The position numbers and the translations under genes are program-made. A stretch of DNA of 64,000 nt from Gordius sp. MW1 (taxonomy: Eukaryota; Nematomorpha; Gordioida; Gordea; Gordiidae), in the NCBI GenBank assembly GCA_964036665.1, contig OZ038532.1, positions 7,316,001-7,380,000 on the forward strand. Direction: 5' to 3'. Shown here piece after piece: positions 635 to 49,092 of the stretch; positions within the stretch are counted from its first letter, which is position 1; each line of letters opens with the position of its first letter. The notes beneath the pieces are model-generated. The model did no database searches, had not been told where the DNA came from, and saw only the letters and a program-made list of their open reading frames with translations.

Positions 635-1542
635 GGGTAGCCAATTTCTTAGAAAATATCAAGATATTATCTAAATCACATATAAATGACCCCAAAGAAT
701 TTTTCTACATTAAGCGGGAAATCACCATGGAAATTGTAAAATCCAATACAATTGCAATTTATGGCTCTATTACAGCTCATTAATTTAATAGATTTTGGCA
801 TGTATTTTTATAATGATTTAGGAATAAACCTCTAGTAATCTAACAAAGATTAATTTTATTTCTATCAGGGCAACCAACAAGAGCCCTAATGATATCATTG
901 AGTTTTTCCGTATAATTCTGAATCTATTTTTTATTTTGCGCCAATGGGGTGATACCCCCCCCCCCCCCGACTAAAACATTGGATAATTTAAAACTAATTT
1001 TGATATCTAAATTAAATCAATTAAATAACTCTAAATGTTTTATATCGAAATTAAATATACCTGCCCAGGCCTGTGCCTAATAAGATAGCGTCAATAGGGC
1101 TGTTTTTTATTTTGCAAAATTCTTTCGCATACTTGATTAAGATAAACCTTTTAATTAAATATCTTCATCAAGGTATATTATTTTGATATCTGATTTCACA
1201 AAGTTCGTTCTAATCGAAAGGCCTTGTATTTACTTAATCAACATCTTAAGTTCTTAAATTTAATTTTCAATTTCCACCTAATCTTAAAGTTAAACAATTG
1301 ATTGGCTATTTTAATAATTTTTTTTTTATTTTGAATAATGTTATTAACCGTTCTAATCATAAAAAATATAGATTTTTTATGATTTTTACAAAGGAATAAG
1401 GCTTCATGGTTCATGCCCATGCAACTAAATGTTGATCTCATACATGACATTTTTGCAATTTTCATCGATTATTTTTTAATTTAATAATAAAAAGTTAATT
1501 TAGTGACTTTTTATAGGTAATTTTCAGTGTACAACTCTAACA
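635..1542. other. AT-rich non-coding stretch
   Basis: No gene, RNA or clear repeat is visible. It contains a homopolymer C run near 955-968, of the sort seen inside the local poly-C/poly-G MITE family. Confidence 0.5.
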
Positions 1543-1550
1543 ATATTAGC

Positions 1551-1706
1551 CATGGGCGTAGCCGGGGGGGGGGGAATTACGAGAAAAAAAAATTTAATGC
1601 AAAAACGTTGAAAATAAAAAAAAATATGTTTTGCCCCCCCCCCCTCTAGTTGACCTTTTAAACGCTTTGCCCCCCCCCCCTAATCCAAAACCTGGCTACG
1701 CCCATG
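1551..1706. mobile_element. Palindromic CGTAGCC MITE with 8-bp target duplication
   Basis: The element starts CATGGGCGTAGCC and ends GGCTACGCCCATG, a near perfect inverted terminus, with poly-G and poly-C runs between. Both flanks carry the 8-bp direct repeat ATATTAGC (1543-1550 and 1707-1714), the duplication size typical of hAT elements. It carries no coding capacity. The same family recurs at 22128, 27533 and 57685. Confidence 0.85.
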
Positions 1707-1939
1707 ATATTAGCGCTTGATAATTTAACAATAAACATATGTTGCTCAACACAAGGTCCAATTTAAAACTAAAATCATGTTCGTGTGTAACAAGCAGTTC
1801 GCTGGAAAATAGCAAAACTTGATTAATTAAACCTTCCATCGCTATTCAAAAAACAAAATCAACTTTACACTGTTTAAATTAGTCGTTTTGTGTGATATAG
1901 CAGGTTTTATCACCACTTTGTTTTACATTTTGTGAGAGG

Positions 1940-2952
1940 ATGCATTCAATCAAATTACTCGGAATTATTTTGTCTTTCATCTACTGTTGCTATTCGCTAG
2001 AAAAATACAAAGGTAATACCCTTCTCATACCCTTTACATCTTTTAATCTTGTATGTGCTATTAAATTAATTTTGTAATAAACTAGGGAACGCCAATTTTG
2101 TTCTTCCCAATAATTTGGCTTTTTTAACGATATTTATTACATATCAATCAATGCCTATGGTTTTTACTTTGCAGTAACAATTTCCTAATTTAGCAAAAAC
2201 ACGAGTATCATAAATTTTCACTAAAATTCTTATAATTAAAGGTCAGATTGTTTAACCGATCTGCTCGCCCGAACATTTCTATTTGTCCGCCCGGCCAGGC
2301 CCGAAGCTACCCGAAATGCCCGGCCCGAAATGATGTGTCTTTAAGTTTTAAGCACTAATATCTTTAAATTATTCCAAATTTTTTATTTTGTTTCCGTTTT
2401 TTTTTGTGATAACTAGGATCACCAAACATTAAACAATCATTTAAAAAGTCACAAATCATACACGAAAACAAAATAATACATTCTTTAAAAAGATCCTTAA
2501 GTCCAAACGGACCAAATCTTATTTTAATGACCTCCCGGGCCCGCCCTAAAGTTGAAATATACGACAGTTGCCCGGCCCGACCCGTGAGCCGCGCGGGCAA
2601 ATTTGGGCTGCCGGCGGGGCTGGGCTTTTCTGGTCTCTGCTATGAATAACAGCCATTAATACTTTTTGATGAGATATTTTTTTAAATTCGCCATTAAAGC
2701 CCAAAGCGCGCTTATATTTGGTCCTTTTTTGTTTCAAAACGCTTTTTTGTAAGAATTTGATTAAATTTAATTATTTCAGAGGATATTTGCAGTTTACCGG
2801 CGGATCCAGGATCATGTGAAGCATTAATGCCTATGTTCTATTATGACACAAAAACTAATAGTTGCCAAGCATTTAATTATGGCGGCTGTCGAGGCAATCA
2901 AAATAGATTTTCCACCGTAAAGGAATGCAAAAGGATTTGTGGAAATCATTAA
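1940..2952 (+). CDS. Secreted single-domain Kunitz protein
   Basis: Two exons, 1940-2012 and 2780-2952, joined in phase 1 across a 767-base intron with GTAAT donor and TTTCAG acceptor; the product is 81 residues. Residues 1-19 form a signal peptide (M-H-S-I-K then a hydrophobic core). The second exon encodes one complete Kunitz/BPTI domain with all six cysteines at standard spacing, the FYYD strand and the NYGGC motif, followed directly by the stop. Kunitz domains block serine proteases through the P1 residue after the second cysteine; here that residue is glutamate (S-C-E-A), which argues against ordinary trypsin inhibition, so another target, or a non-inhibitory role, is likely. The start is the only ATG preceding the hydrophobic core in frame. 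A paralogue with the same exon layout lies at 16887-17678. The target is unknown. Confidence 0.87.
2258..2640. repeat. GC-rich GCCCG repeat pair within the Kunitz intron
   Basis: Two GC-rich arms rich in CCCGGCCCGA-type words (about 2264-2332 and 2531-2638) flank an AT-rich core, lying inside the intron of the Kunitz gene. The same layout is present at 32745-33365 and 61903-62990. It looks like a MITE with degenerate inverted ends; no target duplication was identified. Confidence 0.5.
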
Positions 2953-3330
2953 TTGTGTGCTACTTAATTTAACTTAACCAAAATTGATTAGTTTTTACAA
3001 TATTTATAATTAATTGAATTGTGATTTTTGATATGTTATTTGTTTTATAAATTTATCGGATATGTCATGTTTGAAGGTAAACTATATTGATAATTTTATT
3101 AAAACCTTTTAGTTCGATATCTTAGAAGAGTGGTACTTTCAACCATTATCGATTAATATAATATTTCATAGTCACTCGTCATAATATTTATATGACAATT
3201 GATCGATTTGATTAAAAATGTGGTGCAAATCGTTGAATTTAAAGCAATTAATGTTTTTTGTAAGACAACTTGTTTTTTAAAATATATGCTAAGTATTAAA
3301 TTAATTAGCACATTAGCAGGTATAATCATA
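2953..3330. other. 3' flank of the Kunitz gene, no feature seen
   Basis: AT-rich sequence between the Kunitz stop codon and the P-element relic. No coding or RNA signal is visible. Confidence 0.45.
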
Positions 3331-3618
3331 GACTACATAGACCGCTCATCACGGTATAAAATGTGTGTGTTTTTTTCCGCCATTTGATGAACACATCATA
3401 TACCTCAATACCCTCTCAAATAAGGTCAATTATGAATTATAAAATTACAATAAAAATATTTTGATATAGAGTATTAGTAATTTTTGTAGATTAAATTATT
3501 TTAAAGAGGTGAATGAAACATATTAAACTAGTTAGATATCAACAACAGTATTTTATAATAGATATTATTGACACATTTCATAAAAATTAAAAATGTAAAA
3601 ACTGTAATAAATTAAATT

Positions 3619-4346
3619 TTGGCCCCCCCCCCCAAAAAGCGGGGTCACCAATGTGGTAGCACCACTAAATTCAATTACCTGCAAACAATGGCAACCTCAA
3701 AAACTTTACCAGGCCTAACAAAATCATTTACGGAGTGCCCAATCTACAAGTGGAATTATTTAGCAAGCTCCATAAAATTCAGGAAAGTTATGGGCTACGT
3801 GGAGCAAATCGACTGACCTTAAGCCATATATATTATTTTAATTCAAAAATGAAGGTTTATATTGAGATTTTTTTCATCATTTTAATTGCAGGTAAAATTG
3901 GCAACTCAAGTTTTTTCAGCCTCTGTGGCCAAGGGGATTATGTTGGTCAGGGAATCCAAAGAACCTGTGTTTGAGGACTCAAAAGCAACAGTCTCCTTTA
4001 TTTTATTCATAAATAAGTATGAATATTTCTCATTTATTAAGATTATGATATATCTATTATATGAATCCAGGCAGTTTGATACTTTAACAGTAGGAATGTT
4101 TTGGCAAAAGATTGGAAGGTCCCAATCTTCAAGGAGTCACTGGACCTCCTGAAAAGCTTCTACCAGAAGATGATAAAGTACCTGGCACAATTGAAGTTTC
4201 AGGATGGAACCTTGATTTACACTTCAAATAAAAAAATACCTATAGTTGGTCTTATATCAGCTATGCACTTTATTCCTTTGTTAGCAGAAGATATTTTGAT
4301 TAATGCTAACACACCGGCAAAGTACAATATATATAATTATACTTAA
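3619..4346 (+). pseudogene. P/THAP9-like transposase, N-terminal to central part, frameshifted
   Basis: Three frames must be joined to follow the protein. One gives the segment around L-H-K-I-Q-E-S-Y-G-L-R-G-A-N-R-L-T. The next gives KLATQVFSASVAKGIMLV and a FEDSKATVSFI segment. The third gives the WKVPIFKESLDLLKSFYQ and LKFQDGTLIYTSNKKIPIVG segments. The order and wording match the region of P-element/THAP9 transposases between the coiled coil and the catalytic core. The THAP zinc finger itself is not visible. At 4356 the frame is broken by the hairpin end of a Helentron-like element. Frameshifts make it a pseudogene. Confidence 0.7.
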
Positions 4347-4379
4347 ACCTTAATCTAAAAACTCGGGCCTTCGGCCCTC

Positions 4380-4450
4380 GTGGGAAGGGGGAGAAGGGAA
4401 GGGGAAGGGGAAGGGGAAGGGGAAGGGGAGGAGGGAAAGGGAAGGGGGGA
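4380..4450. repeat. GGGAAGG-type minisatellite near the Helentron-like 3' end
   Basis: A purine-rich run of GGGAAG/GGGGAA words directly inside the terminal hairpin. The same run occurs in the other copies at 14038-14095 (reverse), 42410-42490 and 48475-48525 (reverse), so it is an integral part of the family. Confidence 0.75.
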
Positions 4451-4819
4451 CGACTCATCTATACTGCGTATAAATGTATCATATTTGCTATGCAATTTAT
4501 GGGCGAGAAAGATGGGAAGGGGCGAGAATGCCTATAGGGGGGTATTAAATGCCTAATGATTAATTAATTATTTATACAAATTTTTCATTTATAGGCAAAA
4601 TTTAATATAGGCAAAATGTAATATAGGCAAGGGTTAGGGTTAGATTTAGTGTTTGCATCTAGTTGCGTATTACATTAGTTTTTATGGCCTTTAGTGATTA
4701 TGGGTCTAACAAACATTATATTATAAAACATCACAATGTTAAGAATTTGCAGAATTGTTGGGAGAAATTTTTTTGTTGAATTTGAACAATTTTTAATTAA
4801 AAAAATCAAAAATTTGGCC

Positions 4820-5190
4820 AGTGGTCATTTTTTCTCCATTGGTCAGTACCAACAGATACTCTATAAGTCAATGATAGCCAAAAAAACGGGAAAAAAAATT
4901 TTGAGGCTCACTTTGGCCAATGGTCATTTTTTTCCATTGGTCAGCAGCCAGCACACGGTAAAAGTGGATATAAATTCATAAGAGTAAAAAAAAACGAAAA
5001 AAAAATTTTCGAAACACATTTTGGCCAATGGTCATTTTTTTCCATTGGTCAGCAGCCAGGACACGGTAAAAGTGGATATAAATTCATAATAGTCAAAAAA
5101 AACGAAAAAAAAATTTTCGAATCACATCTTGGCCAATGGTCATTTTATTCCATTGGTCAGCAGCCAGCGGACGGCCAAAAAGTCATAATG
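4820..5190. repeat. Tandem CCAATGG-hairpin repeats in element A
   Basis: At least four units of roughly 110-130 bases. Each contains TTGGCCAATGGTCATTTTTT, then CCATTGGTCAGCAGCCAGC, then an A-rich spacer. CCAATGG and CCATTGG form a stem around the T run. The same unit recurs in the other Helentron-like copies at 9980-10360, 12090-13650, 42960-43540 and 46650-47350. Confidence 0.8.
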
Positions 5191-5197
5191 GCAATGG

Positions 5198-5595
5198 TGT
5201 AGAGGCTCTTTCGCACGCTACTTTCCCATGACCCCGTCTAGGCGAATTCTAACACGTGATTTTTATTTTTAATAGCCCCTCGCTTGTACTTAACCATCAC
5301 GTGATTTTTATTTTAATAGCCCCTCGCTTGTACTTAACCATCACGTGATTTTTATTTTAATAGCCCCTCGCTTGTACTTAACCAACACGTGATTTTAATT
5401 TTAATAGCCCCTCGCTTGTACTTAATCATCACGTTATTTTTATTTTAATAGCCCCTCGCTTGTATTCAATCATCGCCTGATTATTCAAATTATAATGGGC
5501 TCGCGCAGCTAGATAAGCACAACCTTTAAAACTAACATTTATTATTCATTTTTTCGCATAAGTATCTCTTCTAAATATCGAGATAAACCACTTCA
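5198..5595 (+). repeat. 5' LTR of Gypsy 1
   Basis: 398 bases, matching the 3' LTR at 9557-9954. U3 contains five to six tandem units of 44-45 bases, each with the words CACGTGATTTTTATTTTAAT and AGCCCCTCGCTTGTACTTAA. Confidence 0.93.
5250..5480 (+). promoter_or_regulatory. Tandem E-box array in the Gypsy 1 LTR
   Basis: CACGTG (or one-base variants in the last units) recurs at 5253, 5298, 5342, 5386 and 5430, a 44-45-base period. CACGTG is the palindromic E-box bound by bHLH factors, so this resembles an enhancer of repeated sites; binding is an inference. The 3' LTR carries the same array. Confidence 0.6.
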
Positions 5596-5610
5596 TTTGG
5601 TGACCCAAAA

Positions 5611-6405
5611 ATGTCCACGCAACCATCTGATATGGAGGTTAAAAGCGAAAATGCCACATATTTTAAACTGCCACAGTTTAACAATATAAACCCCCGCTCA
5701 TGGTTCATCCAAATAGAGGCTCTTTTCTTGGTAAGAAAGATAAAAAGCGAAGCTACCAAAGTTGGGTACTTAATAGAAGCCTTGCCACTGGAAATAACCA
5801 TCGAAATTCAAGACATCCTACAAAATATGCCCGACATTTTACCCTATACAACCATGAAAGCAGCCATCATAGACCGCACTAGCCAATCCGATTCTGCTAG
5901 ACTTCGTGCTCTTCTCACAACTGTCGAATTAGGAGATCGCACCCCATCCCAGCTTCTGCGTTTCATGAAAAATCTTCTGGGAACGAATTCCATGGATGAA
6001 CGAGTTCTTAAAGAACTTTGGTTATAAAAACTTCCAAAAAACATGACCGGCATTTTGGCAATTGTTTCTGACGAGCAGTCCCTCTCCAAATTGGCCGAAA
6101 CTGCGGACAAGATTGTAGAGACCTACCACAACTCCACATGTCCAATTGTAAATGTAGTCACGGAAGATGAATCGACTCGGCTTAGGGAGATGATTGCAAA
6201 ACTCACACAGGAGGTACAAAATTTAAAAATCTCATTCAATAGGCCACGTGATCGTTCCAACTCGAGACGCCGCAATCCCTCTACCGTTCGCCACCCTAGC
6301 GCGCATATTCAACCAAATATACTTTGTTGGTACCATTACCGCTTTAAAGACAAGGCGCTCAAATGCGTGCAACCTTGCGCATTTAACCTCCCCTCGACAA
6401 ACTAG
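5611..6405 (+). pseudogene. Gypsy 1 gag with one internal stop
   Basis: The frame runs 5611-6027, meets a TAA, and continues in the same frame to 6405, so a single base change is the only break. The N-terminal half resembles the short Gag of arthropod-type Gypsy elements (PRSWFIQIEALF, a bundle of helices, then LPKNM). The C-terminal end has CWYHYRFKDKALKCVQPC, the cysteine/histidine motif that replaces the classical CCHC knuckle in this group. The start ATG lies 15 bases after the LTR. Gag forms the particle that packages the RNA. Confidence 0.82.
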
Positions 6406-6419
6406 TAGACCACCCAGGG

Positions 6420-8279
6420 ATGGCGACGCCTGGACTTGGTCTAAAACTTAGTCGCCTATTTTACATATTCGACAAATCCACGGGTCAGCGATTTCTCATT
6501 GACACAGGCGCGGAAATTTCCGTTATTCCGCCTTCTCGAGACCATTCCTTGACCCCTTCATATGTGCAACTTCAGGCCGCCAATTCTACCCCTATCAAAA
6601 CATATGGCCAAAAGCTTTTCACTTTGGACCTCGGCCTACGCAAAGAATTTAGATGGATTTTTACAATAGCAGACGTTAAACAAATCATCGGAGCCGATTT
6701 TCTTATTCACTACCATCTAGTAGTTGATATAAAAAATAAGCAGCTCTTCGACACTCAAACGACATTAACATCTGCAGGCAAGGCTACACTCGCTACGTCA
6801 ATCAACATACAAGTTGGGATAATTGACACCTCCCCCATCAAATCACTACTTCAGAAGTATGCCTCCATAGTGTCCCCTTCTGATTATAAGGCTCAAGTAA
6901 CTCATAGCACTCAACACCATATCCACACCAACGGCCCCCCGGTTCGCTCAAAACCAAGGAGACTCTTCCCGGACAAGCTTAAGATTGCCCGAGACGAATT
7001 TACTCACATGCTCGAACTTGGTATAATCCGTCCCTCTAACAGTGACTGGTCCTCACCCCTGCACATGGTACCCAAGAAGGCCGCGGGAGATTGGAGACCT
7101 TGTGCCGAGTATCGCATGCTCAACAGTCGTACAATTCCCGACTGTTATCCCCTTCCCCACCTCCATGATTTTGCACTGACCCTTTGCAATAAAACGGTAT
7201 TCTCAAAGATCGATTTAGTCAGGGCATACCACCAAATTCCAATGGCCCCCGAGGATATTTCTAAAACCGCCATCACAACCCCGTTCGGTCTTTTTGAATT
7301 TCTTCGCATGCCATTTGGCCTTCGCAACGCTGCCCAGACGTTTCAACGCTTTATGAACCAAGTTTTTAGAGAACTTGACTTTGTTTTTGTTTACCTTGAC
7401 GACGTACTCATCGCGAGTTCTTCCATTGATGAACACCACAATCATATTAGACTTATTTTTGAAAGACTCAAGTCTTTCGGTATTAAAATCAGTCAGGATA
7501 AATGCGTATGGTGTCAAAACGAAATTAATTTTTTGGGACACAAAATCACCCCTCAAGGTTTGTCACCCCTTCAGGACAAGGTGGAAGCAATCCTCAATTT
7601 CCCACAGCCTACTTCGATGACTCAGTTGAGACGCTTCTTAGGGATGGTTAATTTTTATAGACGGTTTATTCCGATGTGTGCCGATTTACTCATCACCGAT
7701 TTGCTCGACGGTTCAAAGAAGAATATTTCCTGCACCCCGGAAGCTTCGACTGCTTTTAACAACGCCAAACTCGCTTTAAGCAATGTCGTGCCTCTCTCCC
7801 ATCTTCAAAAAGACGCTCAACTCTCAATCACCACTGACGCCTCCAACTCTGCTGTAGGAGCCGTATTACATCAAACATCTAACGGTAATACGCTGCCTTT
7901 GGCCTTTTTTCCCCAAAAGCTAACAAAAACTCAACAACGATACAGTGCATTCGGTCGCGAATTATTAGCAATATATTTAACAATCCGCCATTACCGCCAT
8001 TTTTTAGAAGGGCATGAATTCACTATTTATACAGACCACAAGCCACTAACTTATGCTTTCAGTACACCTATCGACAAATACTCCCCGCGGGAGATTAGAC
8101 AGTTAGACTATATTTCGCAATATACTACCGATCTCCAATATATACCTGGCAAATCAAATGTAGTCGCTGACACCCTCTCAAGGTCTGAAATTGATTCCGT
8201 TGATTTTAAAGACAGGCCCCTAGTAGAAAGGTTAGCTTTGGCTCAGATGGAAGAAAAGTCGGCATTTCAGGACCTATAA
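6420..8279 (+). CDS. Gypsy 1 Pol: protease, reverse transcriptase, RNase H
   Basis: A 619-codon frame. Domains in order: aspartic protease ([13 protein letters not shown], about residues 25-37); reverse transcriptase (about 170-380) with the catalytic Y-L-D-D box intact and [18 protein letters not shown] before it; RNase H (about 455-590) with [18 protein letters not shown] and YTDHKPL. It ends in AFQDL at a stop caused by a frameshift; the sequence just after it continues in another frame towards integrase. The start has no good ATG context and the protein is probably made by frameshift or reinitiation after Gag. Only the RT core looks fully intact. Confidence 0.9.
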
Positions 8280-8311
8280 AATTAACGCAACTTCCTATAC
8301 CTGGCTCTGAT

Positions 8312-9523
8312 TTGACCGTGCAATGCGACATGTCCACAACCTCACCTCGACCACTTGTTCCAATTTCACTCAGACGCCTAATTTTTGATAACTTCCACAA
8401 CTTATCACACCCTGGTACGCGTGCAACACTTAAGCTGATTTCACGTCGATATGTTTGGCCCTCCATCAATAAGGATGTAAGGAAATGGGCCAAATCATGC
8501 GTTGCTTGCCAAAAATCGAAGATTCATCGTCACATAAAAGCCCCTTTAGGCACATTTGCTGAACCTGACGCTCGATTTAGCCACATCCACGTCAATCTCG
8601 TTGGTCCACTACCACCGTCGAATGGATATACCCACTTACTTACCATTATTGACCGTTTCACACGATGGCCTGTCGCCATGCCGATCCGTGACACCTCAGC
8701 CCAAACGGTTGCAAAAGCTCTGATCAAGTATTGGATAGCTGACCTCAGAGTACCATCAAGCCTCACAACAGATAGAGGTCCCCAGTTTGAGTCCCAATTA
8801 TTTCGGAATCTCACGCAACTCCTTGGTGTAAATCACATCACAACCACTGCCTATCATCCACAAGCCAACGGCATGATTGAGAGATTTCATCGACAGTTGA
8901 AAAGTTCCTTGATGGCACAAGGTGACACAAACAAATGGGATGAGCTCTTACCATTAATTTTGCTTGGCATTCGAACCACAATCAAGGAAGACTTAGGTTG
9001 CACTCCAGCCGAATTAGTTTATGGCACTACACTTAGACTTCCCGGCGAATTTTTCACGAACTCAAGAACACCTCATAACGCCTCCGAATTTATTAAATGC
9101 CTAAAACAACATTTTTACCATTTACCTTTTAAAAAAGTCAGGACACAATTGACAAATGCGAGTACAACTTCACTTCTTAAGGACTGTAAATACGTTATTA
9201 TCCGTAATGATTTCGTTCGAAAAAGTTTGGTGCCACCATATGACGGCCCGTTCAGAGTAAAGTCCAAACATGCTAAATATTTCATTATTGAAAAAAACGG
9301 AAAAGCTGACTTAGTTTCGATCGAGCGATTGAAACCTGCATATTTAGATACTTCAACTCAGCCGCTTACGGATACCGAAAATGTAAATCCACCCAAAGTT
9401 TGTCCCTCCGACGACATCGCCGGACCTGCTAACTCCGACCCGGACCTAACAAAATCAAAAGAAAACCCATACATCACATCGAGAGGAAGGCACGTGCATT
9501 GGCGCTATAAACTACTACACTAG
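8312..9523 (+). CDS. Gypsy 1 integrase
   Basis: A 403-codon frame continuing Pol after a one-base frameshift near 8275. The zinc-binding HHCC module is present (HNLSH then CVACQ). The core has TTDRGPQF and HPQANGMIERF, giving the second aspartate and the glutamate. The first catalytic aspartate, expected in the V-D-L-V-G-P-L segment, is asparagine here (IHVNLVGPL, AAT codon). The C-terminal part has the usual VPPYDGPFRV segment. Integrase joins the cDNA to the genome; with the changed residue this copy is probably inactive. Confidence 0.88.
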   Translation: MTVQCDMSTTSPRPLVPISLRRLIFDNFHNLSHPGTRATLKLISRRYVWPSINKDVRKWAKSCVACQKSKIHRHIKAPLGTFAEPDARFSHIHVNLVGPLPPSNGYTHLLTIIDRFTRWPVAMPIRDTSAQTVAKALIKYWIADLRVPSSLTTDRGPQFESQLFRNLTQLLGVNHITTTAYHPQANGMIERFHRQLKSSLMAQGDTNKWDELLPLILLGIRTTIKEDLGCTPAELVYGTTLRLPGEFFTNSRTPHNASEFIKCLKQHFYHLPFKKVRTQLTNASTTSLLKDCKYVIIRNDFVRKSLVPPYDGPFRVKSKHAKYFIIEKNGKADLVSIERLKPAYLDTSTQPLTDTENVNPPKVCPSDDIAGPANSDPDLTKSKENPYITSRGRHVHWRYKLLH

Positions 9524-9556
9524 CCACCACTCTCCGAGTGGAGCCCCGAGGATAGT

Positions 9557-9954
9557 TGTAGAGGCTCTTTCGCACGCTACTTTCCCTTGACCCCGTCTAG
9601 GCGAATTCTAACACGTGATTTTTATTTTTAATAGCCCCTCGCTTGTACTTAACCATCACGTGATTTTTATTTTAATAGCCCCTCGCTTGTATTTAACCAT
9701 CACGTGATTTTTATTTTAATAGCCCCTCGCTTGTACTTAACCATCACGTGATTTTAATTTTAATAGCCCCTCACTTGTACTTAATCATCACGTTATTTTT
9801 ATTTTAATAGCCCCTCGCTTGTATTCAATCATCGCCTGATTATTCAAATTATAATGGGCTCGCGCAGCTAGATAAGCACAACCTTTAAAACTAACATTTA
9901 TTATTCATTTTTTCGCATAAGTATCTCTTCTAAATATCGAAATAAACCACTTCA
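9557..9954 (+). repeat. 3' LTR of Gypsy 1
   Basis: 398 bases, almost identical to the 5' LTR including the E-box array, preceded by GAGCCCCGAGGATAGT, which could be the polypurine tract. It is followed by the ATGG target duplication. Confidence 0.92.
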
Positions 9955-10584
9955 ATGGTAGGAACAGCAACAGGAACAATCATAATAGTCAAAAAAAAAC
10001 GAAAAAAAATTTTCGAATCACATTTTGGCCAATGGTCATTTTTTCCATCAGTCAGGAGCCAGCGGACGACCAAAAATTCTTATTATCAATGATAGTAACA
10101 AGAACAATCATAAGAGTCAAAAAAAACTCCGGGATTCTAACTCAAAAACTAGTTAAATTGCATAGCAATTAAAAGTAAACAACTTTTATTTATGTTTATT
10201 ATATAACATTGGTCAGCAGCCAGCGGACGGCCAAAAAGTCATAATAGCAATGGTAGGAACAGGAACAATCATAATAGTCAAAAAAACGAAAAAAATAATT
10301 TAGATTCACATTTTGGTTAATGGTCATTTTTTCCATCGGTCAGGAGCCAGCGGACGGCCAAAAATTTTTATTCTCAATGATAGTAACAAGAACAATCATA
10401 AGAGTCAAAAAAAACTCCGGGATTCTAACTAAAAAACTAGTTAAATTGCATAGCAATAAAAAGTAAACAACTTTTATTTATGTTTATTATATAATAGATA
10501 ATTTAACAAATCTTATATATAACACACCGAGGGAGATAGAGATGAGGGGTGGGGCACCTCTTATGCATAAATTTAAAAAATAAC

Positions 10585-13500
10585 TGTTATGTAGGGCTAC
10601 CCAGGATGACAATTTAACTGTCCTAAATCCAACACTTTATTCAAGAATTTAATAACCGTTAAGAATCTATTGCGACTAAAATATTTCTACTCACTATTTG
10701 TTTTACAATTAGGTTTAAATAGTAATAACAATAATGATGTAGGATGTTGATAACAAATAAAATGGTAGCGTACAACAATAATACATAGATATAGCGATCA
10801 TTGGTGAGGGGCGTAAATAAAGATGGCGCTAAATAAATATGGCGCATCGTAAACATAAACAACGCCGCTAACAACTACAATTAACGAAATTAACAACCAT
10901 CATCGGGGGGGGGGGGGGGAATTGAAGATGTAGTAAGTATGAAGGTGGTAAGCAATACAATGGGGGGGGGGGGGCTTTAGAAGAATCAAACTAACACGAG
11001 ATCACCGTGACCTTGGATGGGGTATTTTTTTACGACCATTCATTAAATCTATTTTTAACTCTCCCTAAGAGAAAGAAGGGTAATTAAAACTGGAAAAGGA
11101 GGGAATCTAAAACAAAGCGCCTCCAACTGGATCAAACTAAAAATTAAGAGGAGAAAGGGGGGGGGGGGAAACAGGGAGTAGTGATACCACACCTACCCCT
11201 TTTCCCAAAATTAACTCTACCCCTGTGGACCACCCGACAGGGTTAAATTTTCCAACGGTGCTATTAAGGCTCCGCTTGGGTTCAGATCCCACTTCTGACA
11301 CCAAATGTTATGTAGGGCTATTCAGGATGACAATTTAACTGTCCTAAATCCAACACTTTATTCAAGAATTTAATAACCGTTAAGAATCTATTGCGACTAA
11401 AATATTTCTACTCACTATTAATTGCTATGCAATTTATGGGCTCGTTTTTTGTTGTCCGTCCGTTGTCCGTCTGTCCGTCCCTATCTATTTGCATTGGGTA
11501 TATTAGGTTATCGATTTTTTAAATTTATGCACGAGAAAGAGGTGCCCCACCCCTCATCTCTATCTCCCTCGCTGTGTTATTTTTTAAATTAATGCATAAG
11601 AGGTGCCCCACCCCTTATCTCTATCTCCCTCGCTTTCGGGCGGGGTCGGGTTTTAATTGCTATGTTAAATTAATGCATAAGTATATCTATTCGTTTTTGA
11701 ATTGGGTAACATTGATATTAATTGCTATAATTACCCTATGCCCTCCACTACAAGGGCCTATGCCTCTACTGATATGGGTCCCTGTGCCCCTACAAAAGCC
11801 TATGCCTCTATTAATGTGGGTTCGAACCCCGGCGAATGTTCTGAATTGCTGGTTCGATTCCCGGAGAGGGCAAAATTTTTTTTTATTTTTTAAATTAAAT
11901 TAATATATTTTTCCTGTTATTACCATTGATAATATGACTTTTTGGCCGTCCGCTTGTTTTATTATTGTTTCATTTTATTATATAATAAACATAAATAAAA
12001 GTTGTTTACTTTTAATTGCTATGCAATTTAACTAGTTTTTGGGTTAGAATCCCGGAGTTTTTTTGGCTCTTATGATTGTTCTTGTTACTATCATTGATAA
12101 TAAGACTTTTTGGCCGTCCGCTGGCTGCTGACCAATGAAAAAAATGACCATTGGCCAAAATATGAATCCGAGTTTATTTTTTCGTTTTTTTTTGACTATT
12201 ATGATTGTTCCTGTTACTATACGACTTTTTGGCCGTCCGCTGGCTCCTGACCGATGGAAAAAATGACCATTGGCCAAAATGTGAATCGAAATTATTTTTT
12301 TCGTTTTTTTACTATTATGATTGTTCTTGTCCTACCATTGCTATTATGACTTTTTTAATTGCTATGCAATTTATGGGCTCGTTTTTTGTTGTCCGTCCGT
12401 CCGTCCGTCCGTTGTCCGTCCGTCCCTATCTATTTGCATTGGGTATATTAGGTTATCGATTTTTTAAATTAATGCATGAGAAAGAGGTGCCCCACCCCTC
12501 ATCTCTATCTCCCTCGCTGCGTTATTTTTAAAATTAATGCGTAAGAGGTGCCCCACCCCTCATCTCTATCTCCCTCGCTTTCGGGCGGGGTCGGGTTTTA
12601 ATTGCTATATTAAATTAATGCATAAGTATATTTATTCGTTTTTGAATTGGGTAACATTGATATTAATTGCTATAATTACCCTATGCCCTCTACTACAAGG
12701 GCCTATGCCTCTACTGATATGGGTCCCTGTGCCCCTACAAAAGCCTATGCCTCTATTAATGTGGGTTCGAACCCAAGCGAACGTTCTGAATTGCTGGTTC
12801 GATTCCCGGAGAGGGCAAAAAATTTTTTTATTTTTTAAATTAAATTAATATATTTTTCCTGTTACTACCATTGATAATATGACTTTTTGGCCCGTCCGCT
12901 TGTTCTATTATTGTTTCATTTTATTATATAATAAACATAAATAAAAGTTGTTTACTTTTAATTGCTATGCAATTAAACTAGTTTTTGGGTTAGAAACCCG
13001 GAGTTTTTTTGACTCTTATGATTGTTCTTGTTACTATCATTGATAATAAGACTTTTTGGCCGTCCGCTGGCTGCTGACCAATGAAAAAAATGACCATTGG
13101 CCAAAATGTGAATCCGAGTTTATTTTTTCGTTTTTTTGACTATTATGATTGTTCCTGTTACTACCATTGCTATTATGACTTTTTGGCCGTCCCTGGCTCC
13201 TGACCGTTGGAAAAAATGACCTTTGGCCAAAATGTGAATCGAAATTATTTGTTTCGTTTATTTTTGACTATTATGATTGTTCCTGTTCCTACCATTGCTA
13301 TTATGACTTTTTGGTCGTCCGCTGGCTGCTGACCAATGGAATAAAATGACCATTGGCCAAAATGTGATTCGAGAATTTTTTTTTTCTCGTTTTTTTGACT
13401 ATTATGAATTTATATTTACTTTTACCGTGTCCTGGCTGCTGACCAATGGAAAAAAATGACCATTGGCCAAAATGTGATTCGAAATTTTTTTTTCGTTTTT

Positions 13501-14612
13501 TTTACTCTTTTGAATTTATATTCATTTTTACCGTGTGCTGGCTGCTGACCAATGGAAAAAAATGACCATTGGCCAAAGTGAGCATCAAATTGTTTTTCCC
13601 GTTTTTTTGGCTATCATTGACTTATAGAGTATCTGTTGGTACTGACCAATGGAGAAAAAATGACCATTCGCCAAATTTTTGATTTTTTAATTAGTTCAAA
13701 TTCAACAAAAAATTTCTCCCAACAATTCTGCAAATTCTTAACATTGTGATGTTTTATAATATAATGTTTGTTAGACCTATAATCACTAAAGGCCATAAAA
13801 ACGAATGTAATACGCAACTAGATGCAAACACTAAATCTAACCCTAACCCTCCTTGCCTATATTACATTTTGCCTATATTACATTTTGCCTATAAATGGAA
13901 AATTTGTATAAATAATTAATTAATCATTAGGCATTTAATACCCCCCTATAGGCATTCTCGCCCCTTCCCACCTTTCTCGCCCATAAATTGCATAGCAAAT
14001 ATGATACAACATTTATACGAAGTATAGATGAGTTCCCCCCTTCCCTTCCCCCCTTCCCTTCCCCCCTTCCCTTCCCCCCTCCCCCTTCCCACGAAGGCCG
14101 AAGGCCCGAGTTTTCGTTTTACAATTCGGTTTAAATAGTAATAACAATAATGATGTATGATGTAGGATGTTGATAACAAATAAAATGGTAGCGTACAACA
14201 ATAATACATAGATATAGAGATCATTGGTGAGGGGGGTAAATAAAGATGGCGCTAAATAAATATGGCGCATCGTAAACATAAACAACGCCGCTAACAACTA
14301 ACAATTAACGAAATTAACAACCATCATCGGGGGGGGGGGGGGGGAGAATTGAAGATGTAGTAAGTATGAAGGTGGTAAGCAATACAATGGGGGGGGGGCT
14401 TTAGAAGAATCAAACTAACACGAGATCACCGTGACCTTGGATGGGGTATTTTTTTACGACCATTTATTAAATCTATTTTTAACTCTCCCTAAGAGAAAGA
14501 AGGGTAATTAAAACTGGAAAAGGAGGGAATCTAAAACAAAGCGCCTCCAACTGGATCAAACTAAAAATTAAGAGGAGAAAGGGGAGGGGGAACAGGGAGT
14601 AGTGATACCACA
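10585..14612 (-). mobile_element. TRIM-like LTR element, right LTR split by a Helentron-like element
   Basis: The left LTR is 10585-11191 (607 bases, TGTTATG to CCACA). The right LTR is 11306-11417 plus 14114-14612. The internal region is only 114 bases (11192-11305). Read on the minus strand it has a primer-binding-site-like start next to the right LTR (TGGTGTCAGAAGTGGGATC) and a polypurine run GGGAAAAGGGGTAGG next to the left LTR. With both signals and no coding, this is the TRIM layout. Flanks read ATAAC on the left and ATAAG on the right, probably a 4-bp duplication. The LTRs contain poly-G runs. Confidence 0.82.
11418..14113 (+). mobile_element. Helentron-like element B
   Basis: It starts TTAATTGCTATGCAATTTAT and ends with a GGCC-GAA-GGCC hairpin (14090-14108) and T-rich DNA. 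The reverse of the 5' motif lies at 13979-14000, about 110 bases inside the end. It splits the right LTR of the TRIM. Comparison with the intact left LTR shows insertion into a short T run with no clear duplication, as expected for Helentrons. Inside lie CCAATGG-hairpin tandem units, tRNA T-arm-like words and two long direct copies of the 5' segment (11416-11960 and 12356-12920). Non-coding. Confidence 0.68.
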
Positions 14613-14819
14613 ATAAGCGAGGGAGATAAAGATGAGGGGTGGGGCACCTCTTTCTTATGCATTAATTTAAAAAATCGATAACTTAATATACCCAATGCAA
14701 ATAGATAGGGGGACGGACGGACGGACAACGGACGGACGGACGGACACCAAAAAACGAGCCCATAAATTGCATAGCAATTAATAATTAAATTGTGTTAAGA
14801 TATCTGAAAACCTATCAAC

Positions 14820-33365: not shown

Positions 33366-36300
33366 CCCGTGCAAGGCCTTAAATACACTACGGTATTCGT
33401 TACTTATACTATATAAATTTTAAAAAATTTGGTTTGAGGAAAGGGGTGATTCAATTTTAATTAAATTTGGAATTGTTAACAATTGGGATTTAATTGGGTG
33501 GGGGGGGATAATGCCACCGAAAGAAACCCTATGGAAAATAATGGATGTTTTAGACAAATGCCGCCTATTAATTGCTATGCAATTTTTGGTTTTTGCTTGT
33601 CGCTTTATTAGTAAACAATCTGAAAACAGAGCTTAGGCTTATGTATGATAAATATCTCTAGCGGAATTATGCTAATGAGATAATCTAAATTCAATAACTT
33701 TTGCTGCTATGATAAAGTTGGCTTGAGTATTTTATCTTTTTAAATATCCTTTTAGCCGTAGCCTGTGTCCTAAGAGCTTAAAAAAAGCAATATCTTATTA
33801 ATTTTTAATTAAAATTTGTGGCCTTGGATTTTTTTGAGAAGCTTTTAGTGTTGAATGAACAATTAGTGGATATTAAAAAATTAATTATTAATAAAAAATT
33901 TATAATGAAACATAATTTATGCGAACCACTTCTTAATTTAAATTAATAATATTTCTAAGATCTTTGTTTAATATTCGCAAAATTATTAATTTCCACTGTT
34001 TTTTATTATTTTAACTTTTTCACATCATGTTCAGATTAATATTGCTCTATTTTAAAGTTTGAAAATCATTCAAAGTCCTTACGATTAATGCACTTTACCT
34101 TGCTATAAAAAATAGCGGGTAGCCTTTTAATATTTTAATCAAATTACGATTTCGAATATGTTTCTATGAAAAGATTTACGCACCAACATGATCTTTTGGA
34201 TTTGATATAGTGGTGGTAAATGACAATAACTTTGATCTTAATCTTTAAAATCGAGCGATATAACATCATTTCTTCAAAATTAAATAAACGAAATTAAATT
34301 TAAAGTATTCTCTTGATTAGTGCTTTAAGTTAATATCATAAAATCACGTTCTTGAACAGGCAGATCTAAGAATGAAGAATAAAGCCACCTACCGTACTGA
34401 CGACATTGTGTACCACTGAACAAAAATCAGAAAAACCAGGGGCCTGATTGATTGATTAAAACAGATCTCTAACGTCAAAATAGAATTTAACGCTTTGGCA
34501 GAACAGTAGTACAGTCTACTACCAACATTAATCCAATATTGAAAGGAATTCAATAAATCTCATATTCAAATTAGTAAGTGTTATTTGAAAGTCTTAAATT
34601 GTTTTTTTGCTCAACTCGTATAATAAAATTAGCTAAAAGCTCCTTCCTTATACAATATTTTTAAATCTCAAAATACTTAATCAATGGCGTAGCTAGAGCT
34701 TCTCCGTTTTAAAAGGGGTTTGAGCATTATATCAAGTGAGCAGGTAACGGCGAAAAATTTTCCCTATATTTGTTGTCAATAGGTCAATTGATCTTATTAT
34801 TTTATCCCCTTATACGTCTGCAGGTACCAAAATGGCTTAAATCCGTACCTTTTTATTCCCTATCAATAGTATGTACCCAATCAGCTTATTTTAGTTCTCT
34901 AACCACTTACACCTTAATCAAATCAACAACAAAATTTTTTCGCACTTTAAGTGATAAAAATATCTTGTGAAACAACAATGGCAAAAAGTGAATTATTTAG
35001 TGTATAGTAAGTTTATAAAAATGAATTGTAAATGTACAAAATGGAACCAGTAAAAGGAGTAAAAATATTTTAACAAAAACGACAATTTTTGTAAATATAG
35101 GATGTTGCATCGCTCCTCAAGAATATCTAGCCACAACCATAAAAAGCCAGATTTAAAAATAAAATTTTTTACACATTTGATACCTTCAAAGCAGCTTGCT
35201 TATGGATGAGTTTTAAAATCCGCGATATTAGTTGAAACATCGTATCAACAAAGCCTCTTTAAAACTGAGACACTTGAAAGGCGATATGATATATTTTAGT
35301 TTAATAAAATTTCAATTATTTAATTAAAACCATGAAATACATTGTAAACTAAAATATACGGATGAAAATTTTATTATCTTTTAAACATTATAAACCTATA
35401 ATTTCAAGAGTAAAACTAGTCCCTAAGTAGTAGCTATTCGTTATGTTTTTATTCGATTTGCGAAAAAATCTTAAAAATCTTAATTGATCTTGTCCCTTAT
35501 AATTCAGCCTGGCACAAGGACTTTTAAGCACAGCTTAAAATCCAAAGAATCAGGCTCGGGGGTGAGCCAGTTCCTCAATGTCGCATGGCCCAAAGAAAAT
35601 TCAAGCCAAAAGACCATATAAAACGTAATTTTCCAAAATGAACACAGCTCTAATTTAAATTAATATAATGTCCCTACAGCGTTCTTTGTATATAATTATT
35701 TTTTGGTCAAAATTGTGAATTTAAATTTGTGTTCTTAATACAAGCATCCCTATCTATATAACTTGACAAAAGAATATAAATAAATAACACAAAACGTTTA
35801 TATTATTACTAAAAAGTAGCATTTACAATTTTTTAATTAAATTAATATAATAAAATAAAATAATGATTAAATTTAGCGTAAATTGGATTGACCATTATCT
35901 ATCTGTCATACATATTCTTGATTCAATTATCTGCAATCAGCAATTAATTTTATTATAAATCGATAAGGTAAAATTAATGAAATATTATAATAAAAATTAC
36001 GATCAAAAAAATGTTGGGATTTAATCAGGCTGACAACTACATTTCAGGCCCGGGTCGTGCTCACACGGTTTTAAGTTTAAAACTACCATTAGAGAACTAT
36101 GCGAGAGCATTAATTCGTTCTGGTTTGACTTAATTTAAAATAAATGAATGAAAGCACTTTCCTTTCCACAGCCTTTTAGAACTCACCTTAGTAATTAAAT
36201 AAATTAATCAATCATAATATAAAATGCCTTACCTATTTGATCCCAAGATATCATTTGGAGCTAAGTAATCGGATTGCGGGCTATTGCCAAACGAAGTGGA

Positions 36301-37830: not shown

Positions 37831-38310
37831 ACTTTACCTTAGTTTTAAGCTTATAGACAATAAAAATAATTAATAGGATAGGCTTCTAAACATAAATTAG
37901 ATATAATGTTCATTAGCTCAAGCTCAATGTATTCAAATACTACCTCAAATATCCCTTAGGTTATTATAATTGTACCAAATACAATATTGAGTTTATCAAT
38001 TAGCTTAACCAGAATTACATTTAAAAGGATAGGCTTATAAACATAGATTAGATATAATGATCATTAGCTCAAGCTCAATTTATTTAAATACTCACTCAAA
38101 TATCCCTTAGGTTATTATAATTGTAATAAATGATTATACAATGTTATTACCTAAACATATTTATATAAAACAACATGGCATTAACACGTGACAATGTAAT
38201 GAATTGCGCATTATTGGGATCTTATGATATATTTGAATAAACTATGAATCGGACTTTGAAGCTTTGTAATATTGGCGACGAGGTAAAACTATCACAAAAA
38301 ATATATATAT

Positions 38311-44819: not shown

Positions 44820-45796
44820 TTACTTCCATAGAGTAACACCGGTCTTACGATGGATTCGGAAGCTTTGCTCTTCAACCATATTGGCATTTTCTTGTCGCGC
44901 ATTACACCAGATATATTTCGCCATTTGAGACATCGTTTTTGGGTCTATGTAATGACATTTTTTGCAACCTCTTATCGATGTAGCATCAAGCCGAGGTATG
45001 TAAACCTGTCTACTTTTGGGTATAGATGGTGATCCAGCGATGGGGTGCTTGTACCATTCATTTCCATGTATACCGTTTTTAGATCGTTGACCTTTAAACC
45101 ATATCCAGCTAAGCGCTTTGACCACTTTTCGGCTTCTTCGAATACTATCTCCCTTGTTTGCTCTCATAGTACTATATCATCGGCATATAGCATACACCAT
45201 GGCGATGACTTTTGAATGTCCCTCGTTATCGTGTCTATAATTATGGACTTAAATTGGATCCTTACCCGAAAAGATTTAGAGTCTCCAACTGTCGTCCTAA
45301 CGCAAGAGTTTGAGGCTTCATACATATTCATAAGCCGTTTATATGCGTCAGGGATATTTTGTTTTCTCATGCACCGACATATTAAGTCGCGGGGGACCGT
45401 GTCATAAGCTTTTTCCAAGTCGATAAATACCATACGTAGGTCTTTCCTCTTTTCACCATACTTATTCATCATTTGTCTTAGTGCGAAGATTGGTTCGATT
45501 GTGGATTTGCCGGCCATAAATCCGAATGGATTAGCCGATATTTTGACCTCGTTGTTACTAAGATTCTTTCCATAAGCTTCAAGGAGTGGCAAATTAGCTT
45601 GATACCTCTGTAATTGCCACAGTCTTGAGGGTCTCGTTTGCCTTTAAATAAGTGTATAATCGTTCTTGCTGTATTGATTAGGAATTCGCTCTTCTACCAA
45701 TATCTTGTTAAGGAGGTTCGTCATGGTGATAACTCCTTCTTCACGACATCCGAGCAATGCTTCCATAGGTATTCCATCTGGGCCATTTGCTTTTTA
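44820..45796 (-). pseudogene. LINE reverse transcriptase
   Basis: Minus-strand pieces: K-A-N-G-P-D-G-I-P-M-E at 45796 downwards (immediately at the Helentron-like insertion), Y-R-G-I-K-like words near 45600, then the 142-codon frame 45164-45592 with PFGFMAGKSTIEPIFALRQ, MVFIDLEKAYDTVPRD and the catalytic box W-C-M-L-Y-A-D-D-I-V. A following frame (44820-45167) carries the thumb/C-terminal part. The motifs are typical of LINE reverse transcriptases of RTE or related clades. Several frameshifts and a small deletion (before T-R-D-I-Q) disrupt it. Confidence 0.85.
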
Positions 45797-48624
45797 ATTG
45801 CTATGCAATTTATGGGCTCGTGTTTGGTTGTCCGTCGTCCGTCGTCCACCAAGTTATTGGCGCCAGTTTTGTGACCTGGATATCCCGGGTTCAAGCCAGG
45901 GAGAGGACGAATTTTTTTTTTAATTTTTTTAAATTAAATTAATATTTTGTTCTTGTTAATACCATTGATAATATGAATTTTTAACCATCCGCTGGCTACT
46001 GACCAATGAAAAAAATGACCATTGGCCAAATAAAGCGAAATTTTTAATTGCTATATGCAATTTATGGTATTTTTTCGTCTTTGAATAGGTTAACATTGAT
46101 AATTACCCTATGCCCTTTCCTACAAGGGCCTACGCCTCTACTGATATGGGTCCTTGTGCCCCTTACCAAAGCCTATGCCTTTACTGATATGGGTCCCTGT
46201 GCCCCTTACCAAACCCTATGCCTTTATTAATGTGGGTTCGAATCCCGGAGAGGGCAAAATTTTATTTATTTTTTAAATTAAATTAATATATAGTTCTTGT
46301 TAATACCATTGATAATGTGACCTTTTGGCCGTCCGCTGGTTACTGACCAATGAAAAAAATGACCATTGGCCAAAGTATAAATCGAAATTTTTTTTCGTTT
46401 TTGAATTGGTTAACTTTGATAATTACCATATGCCCTCCCCTACAAGGGTCTATGTTTCATTATCTATATAGTGTCACGCTCTTCGGTGTCTTGCACCGAA
46501 TGTCTTGTCACGCATCGAATGTCTTCTCACGCTGTTTACTTTTAATTTTAATTAATTTAACTAGTTTGTGGGTTCGAATCCCGGAGTTTTTTTTGACTCT
46601 TATGATTGTTCTTGTTACTACCATTGATAATAAGACTTTTTGGCCGTCCGCTGGCTGCTGACCAATGGAAAAAAATGACCATTGGCCAAAATGTGTATTG
46701 AAATTATTTTTTTCGTTTTTTTTGACTATTATGATTATTCCTGTTCCTACCATTGCTATTATGACTTTTTGGCCGTCCGCTAGCTGCTGACCAATGGAAT
46801 AAAATGACCATTGGCCAAAATGTGATTCGAAATTTTTTTAAAGTTTTTTTTGACTATTATGAATTTATATCCACTTTTACCGTGTCCTGGCTGCTGACCA
46901 ATGGAAAAAAATGACCACTGGCCAAAATGTGATTCGAAAATTTTTTTTTAGTTTTTTTTTGACTATTATGAATCTATATCCACTTTTACCATGTCCTGGC
47001 TGCTGACCAATGGAAAAAAATGACCATTGGCCAAAATGTGATTCGAAAATTTTTTTTCGTTTTTTTTGACTCTTATGAATTTATATCCACTTTTTGTGTC
47101 CTGGCTGCTGACCAATGGAAAAAAATGACCATTGGCCAAATGGTGAATCAAACTTTTTTCTCCGTTTTTTGACTCTTATGATTGTTCCTGTTAATACCAT
47201 TGATAATATGACTTTTTGGCCGTCCGCTGGCTGCTGACAAATGGAAAAAAATGACCATTGGCCAAAGTGAGCATCAAAAAATTTTTCCCCGTTTTTTTGG
47301 CTATCATTGACTTAAAGAGTACCTGTTGGTACTGACCAATGAAAAAAAATGAACATTGGCCAAATTTTATATATAACCTAAAAATTTATTATAGATGGTC
47401 TAACAGAACAGACAGCCAACTATGTAATATATATTTTTAACTTTATAAATGCATATATATTTTTTTATTGGGTTAATATATTTCATTTAATTAGATTGTG
47501 ATTTCATAGAAAACCTAAAAAGTAATAGTTAAAAAAATATAGGTATTAGATTCTAATTTACGATACAATATATTGATAGAAACTAACACAAAATTCGACA
47601 CCTCCTTCAAAGGTATAATCATAGCCCGTTCTTTCTAATTAAATTCAATCTACTATTAAACTATTAAAACACGAATTGTACTTTATTAGATGGGCGCGTA
47701 ATTAGTAAAATTTTCTACGTGTTATAGATATACACCGCACGTGTGGCCGGGAAATGTCCGATATTTTTAAAACGAAAAGGTATTTTAGGAATCTGAAAAG
47801 GCTATTTTACCCCTGGCCGCCCTGGGCACCTACGGGTAAAGTTTCGAGCGAATCGGGCGGGTAGTTTCAGAATTTAGCCCTTTTTTAAAACTAAAAGGAA
47901 TTTTTATTTTAATTTTTTTTCTTTATAATTAAATTAATATTATGTTCTTGTTAATACCATTGATAATTTGACTTTTTGACCGTCCGCTGGCTACTGACCG
48001 ATGAAATATATTGATTTTCTAAACATAAAACAGAACTTTATTATTTCATTATCTATATAAATAACATAATAACTTATACTATTTTAATACCAGCATGGTG
48101 TGACGGGTTATATCGCACGGCTTGTAAACAGGGTGACCTGGATATCCCGGGTTCAAGCTCGGGAGAGGGCAAAATTTTTATTTTTTTTCAAATTAAATTA
48201 ATATTTTGTTCTTGTTAATATCATTGATAATAAGACTTTTTGATCGTCCGCAGGCTTGACCAATGGAAAAAATGACCATTGGCCAAATAAATCGATTTTT
48301 TTTCGTTTTTGAATTGGTTAACATTGATAATTACCCTATGCCCTCCCCTACAAGGGTCTTTAACTAATTATTTTGCATTTAATACCCCCCTATAGACATT
48401 CTCGCCTTCCTACCTTTCTCGCCCATAAATTGCATAGCAAATATGCTACGTTTATACGGAGTATAGATGAGTCGCCCCCCCCCCTTCCCTTCCCCTACTC
48501 CCCCTCCCCTACTCCCCTTCCCACGAGGGCCAAAGGCCCGAGTTTTTTTTTTGCATCTTGTTCATCGATGTACTAACTTCATACTCCCCTTCCCACGAGG
48601 GCCAAAGGCCCGAGTTTCTTTTTT
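45797..48624 (+). mobile_element. Helentron-like element C within the LINE
   Basis: It begins AATTGCTATGCAATTTATGG directly after a T run in the LINE and ends with the hairpin GGGCC-AAA-GGCCC and a T run, present twice (about 48525-48552 and 48597-48624) because of a local 72-base duplication. The inverse 5' motif lies at 48423-48445. Joining the LINE across it (… N-K-M-Q then K-A-N-G-P-D) restores a normal reverse-transcriptase reading, which confirms the insertion. Inside are tRNA-like modules and about seven CCAATGG-hairpin units. Confidence 0.7.
48093..48170 (+). other. tRNA-derived module inside Helentron-like element C
   Basis: A stretch resembling the 3' three quarters of a tRNA(Thr): CGGCTTGTAAACAGGGTG resembles a TGT anticodon arm, and CCCGGGTTCAAGCTCGGG is a T arm with a B box. 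The 5' acceptor half does not pair and extra bases interrupt the variable region, so it is a tRNA-derived repeat (SINE-like), not a working tRNA gene. Confidence 0.5.
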
Positions 48625-48654
48625 GCATCTTGTTCATCGATGTACTAACTTCAT
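48511..48654. repeat. 72-base tandem duplication across the end of element C
   Basis: Two adjacent units each contain the hairpin end of the Helentron-like element plus 30 bases of flanking LINE (GCATCTTGTTCATCGATGTA, starting 48553 and 48625). The duplication therefore happened after insertion, or as part of an imprecise insertion event. Confidence 0.8.
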
Positions 48655-49092
48655 CCTCCTGAAAGAGTTCGACCATACTTATATTTGGCTCAATTTTGGG
48701 AAGGGAATTCTTGTCATTTGCAATATTAATAAGTTTCTTAAAATATCCTTACCTTTCCATCACTTCTTTCGGCTTGAATAAGGTTTGACTCTTCTCGTTT
48801 TTGACTATTTTAAGAACTCCGACATCGCGACTTTTCTTCTCCATTATCTTGGCCAATTTTTACATAAGCCTATCGCCCCCTTTATGATCGAGTTTGTTTG
48901 CCATCTCGGTGTAGGCGGCATTCTTCGCTTTTGCAACGGCCTTTTTTGCGGCCCTCTTTGCGTCCCTATGCTTTTGATAATCCTCCAACTTTTTTGATTA
49001 TGCCATCGTCTATATAGATTTTTCTTTCTTTCGATGAAATCCCTAACCGATTGATCTCACCACCATAGTTCCCTTGCCTCCTTTGGTCTGTC

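Follow-up and report, generated by a model that had tools for sequence, protein, structure and literature searches.

A high-copy, non-coding family of rolling-circle elements, probably of the Helentron/Helitron2 class, in Gordius sp. MW1

The window analysed here is a 64,000-nucleotide stretch of the Gordius sp. MW1 genome (C6:7316001-7380000; assembly of 211.8 Mb in 12 contigs; window G+C 32.7%). At 11420–14110 it holds copy A, a member of a non-coding element family, HINE/DINE-1-like in kind, whose copies number in the thousands. The family is real, large and of an ordinary class: terminal anatomy, insertion into T runs, copy number and empty sites together make it very probably a high-copy, non-coding rolling-circle family of that class (HINE, DINE-1-like). 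As a Rep partner was not found among the 40 Rep loci read, the class is assigned by the ends.

Terminal anatomy and abundance

The family begins 5′ AATTGC and finishes CCCGAG 3′, with T adjoining both ends. Copy A is organized as follows (subTIR, subterminal inverted repeat; LTR, long terminal repeat).

11420..14110, + strand: copy A, HINE-like element, inside the second LTR of a TRIM-like element
11420..11439, + strand: 5′ terminal palindromic subTIR, AATTGC-TAT-GCAATT-TATGG, folding as a 6-bp hairpin
12357..12376, + strand: additional 5′ end inside copy A, placed in a T run of its first half
12391..12425, + strand: GTCC microsatellite
13003..13614, + strand: central tandem repeats, units of 106–127 bp
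13981..14000, − strand: 3′ subTIR, the inverted 5′ 20-mer with one mismatch, spaced 110 bp from base 14110, where the element ends
14033..14090, + strand: CCCTT-type minisatellite, lying between the 3′ subTIR and the hairpin
14095..14107, + strand: 3′ hairpin AGGCC-GAA-GGCCC, outermost A-C unpaired

The 5′ half of copy A is doubled, 11420–12355 matching the sequence from 12357 onward at 94.4% identity. A first-pass annotation, made from the sequence of the window, had described an inverted copy of the 5′ end about 110 bases inside the 3′ end, a minisatellite and a terminal hairpin, and all three are present in copy A. It had also described four copies with a common 5′ end; this stands for copies A, B and D, which have both ends, and fails for copy C, which is without a 5′ end. 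Together the four copies make up about 12.9% of the window.

The 5′ terminal 20-mer, AATTGCTATGCAATTTATGG, matches exactly at 11420, and 11 matches with at most three mismatches lie in the window against 0.04 expected by chance. The genome-wide copy search that the annotation called for returned 19,301 matches at up to two mismatches (control, 1), a total that is not a copy number because it counts 3′ subTIRs, which differ by one mismatch, and internal copies along with the 5′ ends. The 3′ hairpin context, CCTTCCCAC-N18-TT, has 4,078 genome matches (control, 48). Pairing 3′ ends with the nearest exact 5′ end less than 8 kb away on the + strand of contig C1 gave a median length of 1,906 bp (29 pairs, range 803–6,367). 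Reading of the copies revealed no recognizable transposase frame. Among frames scanned from inside them, the four longest (170–209 residues; L048, L051, L060 and L066) reach the cut-off of no Pfam family; the best score, E = 3e-5 for a repeat-rich frame in L060, falls short of the threshold of the family concerned.

Empty sites and insertion into T runs

Both empty sites deduced in the first-pass annotation, one in a long interspersed nuclear element (LINE) and one in the TRIM LTR, hold in paralogous rows. For copy D, which interrupts the LINE, the query joined both flanks by four Ts, and the joint is spanned in 40/40 scored rows (the best 40 of 1,486 candidates). In L074, the sole paralogue read at the letter level, the empty site is GCTTTTCCTTTTTGCATC, with GC-TTTTCCTTTTT-GCATC across the joint; at the filled site the element follows GC-TTTTT, and either of its two hairpin copies is followed by ten T-rich bases and then GCATC. 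The TRIM search gave 44 rows (best 40 of 75 candidates scored): the first LTR of the window (1), the filled LTR in its two halves (2) and 41 further rows, every one of which spans the empty site of copy A, as judged by reported ranges. The empty form, read in the window's first LTR, is CACTATT-T-GTTTTAC; the filled LTR has CACTATT before the element and TTTTC-GTTTTAC after it.

Filled sites of A and D hold about four T-rich nucleotides more than the empty ones, which may have come with the element or from a short duplication of Ts. The annotation's claim of insertion without duplication is thus sound for everything beyond these T-rich nucleotides at the two sites and is left qualified for the Ts themselves. 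Thomas et al. met the same ambiguity and assign the Ts to the element (PMC4067079).

Insertion into T runs, as claimed, is borne out at both ends. The 5′ junction is preceded by TT in 42/46 exact matches on the C1 + strand (the 46 lying among 100 C1 + strand 20-mer matches listed), against a TT background of 0.133; the binomial probability is 1e-32, with some junctions being of common descent. At the other end, a set of 30 loci most similar to copy A, reduced by three duplicates, has T after the terminal GAG in 27/27 distinct junctions and TT in 25/27.

The 3′ hairpin

Most of the copies listed carry a common hairpin, GGGCC-GAA-GGCCC. The form GGGCC-TTC-GGCCC, counted as a sequence variant in the first-pass annotation, is this same hairpin on the opposite strand. 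B and D have an identical stem, with D altered in the loop only, and copy A has an A-C mismatch in the outermost core pair; among the four copies, only C has a clearly different, longer stem (CCAGGGTC-GAA-GGCCCTGG).

The annotation had further proposed that the stem covaries, which does not hold, and that selection acts on its pairing, which is not supported. From 100 listed rows we excluded two unrelated, one truncated within the hairpin and one deletion variant, counting identical rows once, which left 24 distinct hairpin types. Core cells are paired in 88.3% of cases, whereas sliding one arm gives no more than 56.7%; to that extent the hairpin itself is real. Across the five core pairs there are no two-sided changes and no excess over shuffles: the observed value was reached by 500/500 shuffles for pairing, 500/500 for two-sided changes and 405/500 for the covariation score. 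An eight-pair version has one two-sided change, with 287/500 shuffles as high. Many of the variants differ by one change that disrupts or weakens the stem, a pattern to be expected if copies decay once inserted. The covariation result neither proves nor excludes a role of pairing at transposition.

Search for an autonomous partner

Helitron and Helentron Rep proteins differ by L versus S in the motif RG(L/S)PHxH (PMC4067079). A PF14214 profile search gave 714 candidates, of which the best 150 were scored, and 40 Rep loci were read: the 30 best, 9 weaker ones and L072. The leucine is present in 29/30 of the best loci and 9/9 of the weaker ones; L028 and L072 are unreadable. Three of the leucine-bearing Reps are near-identical tandem copies. 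L018, L020 and L021 (C3:19.108–19.136 Mb) are canonical Helitron Rep copies spaced by about 12.46 kb, two of which were compared and are 99.8% identical over 3,540 bp, making a tandem array of a long unit.

Neither the 20-mer (at most three mismatches) nor the 3′ motif occurs in the 1.5-kb flanks of the 30 best Rep loci, one of which (L013) carries a 76-bp stretch of the family interior. Two longer Rep stretches, of 17.5 and 16 kb, give no BLAST match to either family end, and in one of them the frame is intact at 1,441 residues; the 17.5-kb stretch has a lone 20-mer with three mismatches about 1.1 kb after the Rep frame. No Rep-helicase lacking an endonuclease was found between family ends in these flanks and longer stretches.

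Two candidate partners were rejected. At C1:3253184 (L072, L073), a 5′ end 4.4 kb upstream of a decayed Rep was set aside as a chance neighbour: family sequence stops after about 84 bp, giving way to another repeat with 1,891 candidates, and a correctly oriented 3′ end is absent from the 18.3 kb examined. The 5.6-kb candidate at C1 413102–418708 (L075) resolves into a 5′ fragment plus a separate, ordinary 1.65-kb copy, with no recognized coding part.

Class assignment and rival explanations

Judged by the features that define HINEs (PMC4067079), the family has a subTIR of 11 bp or more close to each end (the 20-mer at 11420 and its inverted counterpart at 13981, one mismatch), a 3′ palindrome (GGGCC-GAA-GGCCC in most listed copies, with a modest folding advantage), and T-rich insertion with Ts at both ends and no other change to the target. 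It also has the asymmetric inverted repeats with hairpins at both ends that characterize Helitron2. The 5′ TC, 3′ CTRR and A/T insertion of canonical Helitrons are not seen in its ends, AATTGC...CCCGAG between Ts.

Several observations weigh against this assignment. An autonomous partner with the family ends, which the annotation had suggested seeking as a Rep-helicase-endonuclease, was not found among the 40 Rep loci read (150/714 candidates scored), and 38 of those 40 carry the canonical-Helitron L, none the Helentron S, with two unreadable; as 150/714 candidates were scored, a Helentron-type Rep may be hidden. The OTU domain, taken like RPA as a marker of Helentrons, gave 22 matches among 55 candidates, and the one opened (L085) lies behind an integrase-like frame. 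The RPA C-terminal domain gave two matches within 0.9 kb, apparently one gene. The consensus hairpin folds modestly better than shuffles (z −1.8, calculated as single-strand DNA; −1.1 for copy A), the hairpin of copy C folding best of the three tried (z −3.1). The Ts at both ends may leave room for a short T duplication. Lastly, the 3′ subTIR lies 110 bp from the end, compared with 38–60 bp in mite HINEs (PMC4067079), a larger spacing that is explained by the CCCTT minisatellite between it and the hairpin.

The OTU-domain frame of L085 spans 1710–2183, about 1.3 kb behind the frame that looks integrase-like by eye, and it has several equally scoring copies in the genome.

The driver may be a Helitron2, encoding a Rep-helicase without the endonuclease, instead of a Helentron; we regard this as a real possibility, if not the favoured one. 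Both groups have such termini in common (PMC5148889), and the class would be unchanged. Helitron2 is reported to insert between TTTT and T or C, and Helentrons in TT (PMC5148889); the family has ATT or TTT in 41/46 of the 5′ flanks and T after the 3′ end in 27/27, flanks that resemble those of Helitron2. With no Rep bearing the family termini among the loci read, however, nothing separates Helitron2 from Helentron. The Helentron-like reading of the first-pass annotation therefore stands as to class, through the termini, T-run insertion, copy number and empty sites; as between Helentron and Helitron2, the termini fit either.

It is improbable that the abundant canonical Helitrons of the genome (RGLPHAH Rep) mobilize the family in trans. 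Theirs is the sole Rep type seen (38/38 readable loci, within the best 150 of 714 PF14214 candidates scored), but Helentron-type Reps may hide among the 564/714 unscored candidates, the 30 best loci are without both family ends in their 1.5-kb flanks, the 17.5- and 16-kb stretches have no match to those ends, and the canonical TC...CTRR termini with insertion at A^T (PMC4067079) are not seen in the family. Still harder to credit is a cut-and-paste miniature inverted-repeat transposable element with terminal inverted repeats: a pair of 20-nt inverted repeats does exist, but its 3′ member lies 110 bp inside the end, the mapped ends lack symmetry, and at the two empty sites nothing other than Ts could have been duplicated.

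For a family of the Helentron/Helitron2 class, the Rep-helicase of an unseen autonomous relative would nick the 5′ end in a T run; one strand would then be peeled off, with the 3′ hairpin acting as the terminator. The analysis adds a large HINE-type family to a genome in which the Reps read so far are of canonical Helitrons only, so the question of what drives the family is answerable by a complete Rep survey.

Clustered 5′ ends and 20-nt stubs

Neighbouring 5′ ends lie within 500 bp of one another in 12/99 gaps among the listed matches, against 0.7 expected. Where clusters were read, the second 5′ end usually lies within the first copy, directly after ATT or TTT. In copy A, the internal 5′ junction (12357) has a single genome occurrence at up to three mismatches. 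Another junction, that of L086/L087, recurs at 98 places, 54 of which are identical, and is found on each of the eight large contigs, so it spread by descent; that a full 5′ end precedes it was observed at two of the 98 places. Helitrons are known to form tandem arrays and to bypass their ends (PMC4067079; PMC5148889). The clusters may have arisen when new copies entered T runs of older ones and the 3′ end between them was lost, some clusters later moving as a single unit. Head-to-tail joins were also seen in L093 and L057, where a new 5′ end begins 5–6 T-rich bases after the 3′ hairpin.

At three T-rich sites with a stub-free relative, the extra piece is little longer than the 5′ subTIR. Relative to stub-free forms, it measures 22 nt in L087 (compared with window position 48022; L086 has the same junction), 25 nt in L001 (compared with window 46376–46400; like the stub in copy D) and 21 nt in L056 (compared with copy A on the opposite strand). 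In each, recognizable element sequence stops at nucleotide 19 or 20.

46046..46067, + strand: internal 5′-end stub in copy D, with two extra bases relative to the 20-mer and T-rich native sequence directly after it

The stub-free form of this last piece lies near 46376–46400, as the L001 comparison indicates. Copies A and D also differ by 12 nt containing AATTGCT. Among the 46 sampled junctions, 7 do not have GCTC next; 4 of these continue with T, each of them inside an element, and one junction is common to two of them. Stubs are a minority and may represent few events. A lone 20-mer at 33570–33589 (one mismatch), with TATT before and TTTTTG after, is possibly a stub outside any element.

Such stubs could mean that the 5′ subTIR, some 20 nt plus the Ts that flank it, is able to insert alone, as a trace of abortive rolling-circle insertion. 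We consider this rather unlikely; Rep would have to join the nicked 5′ hairpin to the target, with the reaction halting once the subTIR is complete. The stubs may also derive from nested full insertions by deletion. A search for literature on truncated or abortive Helitron insertions, confined to titles and the beginnings of abstracts, returned no title on 5′ stubs, which does not prove their absence. To our knowledge, the order of steps in rolling-circle transposition is still deduced largely from models. If the stubs were abortive products, they would be natural evidence on that order, showing that 5′ joining precedes synthesis of the remainder.

Copies B, C and D and nested elements

4362..14779, − strand: copy B, 5′ end at 14779 and 3′ end at 4362, interrupted by an LTR retrotransposon and the TRIM
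5198 to about 9954: LTR retrotransposon inserted in copy B (LTRs 5198–5595 and 9557–9954)
10585..14612, + strand: TRIM-like LTR pair nested in copy B (LTR1 10585–11191, LTR2 from 11306)
42390..about 43545, − strand: copy C, 3′ part, 5′ end missing and 5′ boundary approximate
45796..48542, + strand: copy D, mosaic interior, inserted in an antisense LINE reading frame
48510..48659, + strand: 72-bp tandem duplication of the hairpin of D and its flank, the second hairpin copy ending at 48614

The piece at 14613–14779 is the 5′ end of copy B, since alignment to copy A shows it running on into 10584; copy A in turn interrupts LTR2 of the TRIM. The retrotransposon in B has 398-bp LTRs (98.7% identical) with a 44-bp tandem repeat, and ATGG at both flanks; its frames look gypsy-type by eye. 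A second family, GCTC(A/G)CTTTCCATTTT..., with the same 5′ end and an unrelated interior, was met at L090, L005, L089 and L092, and similar sequence was seen by eye inside copy D near 46470–46540. Elsewhere in the window, one satellite-like tandem repeat of about 128 bp forms two arrays 10 kb apart (44054–44400 and 54420–55730; 87–90% identical). A 151-bp tandem repeat at 40545–41021 adjoins a frame resembling that of a retrotransposon, and related sequence occurs upstream at 37870–38131.

Comparison with known systems

The family resembles HINE-Mo of the mite Metaseiulus occidentalis (PMC4067079) in having palindromic subTIRs, a 3′ palindrome and micro/minisatellite or tandem repeats, and in T-rich insertion without other duplication and a variable number of Ts at both ends. 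Its subTIR is 20 nt and starts directly after the flanking Ts, compared with 12–15 nt in HINE-Mo. With Cg_HINE of the oyster Crassostrea gigas (PMC7492417) it has in common a GTCC-type microsatellite after the 5′ end (in several Cg_HINE), central satellite-like tandem repeats, a 3′ subTIR with a palindrome, and oligo-T sites, a likeness drawn from the layout of the repeats; a partner was likewise not found for Cg_HINE. Cg_HINE has a subTIR of 11–12 bp plus a separate complementary inverted repeat, whereas here there is one palindromic 20-mer.

Very high copy number, subTIRs, a 3′ stem-loop and a preference for TT also link the family, at the level of features, to DINE-1/INE-1 of Drosophila (PMC4067079); the subTIRs of DINE-1 are described there as non-palindromic, and those of the present family are palindromic. 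Helitron2/FoHeli elements of Fusarium oxysporum (PMC5148889) encode a Rep-helicase, unlike anything found here with the family ends, and a circular intermediate is reported for FoHeli1. Asymmetric inverted repeats with hairpins and T-containing insertion sites are common to FoHeli and the Gordius family.

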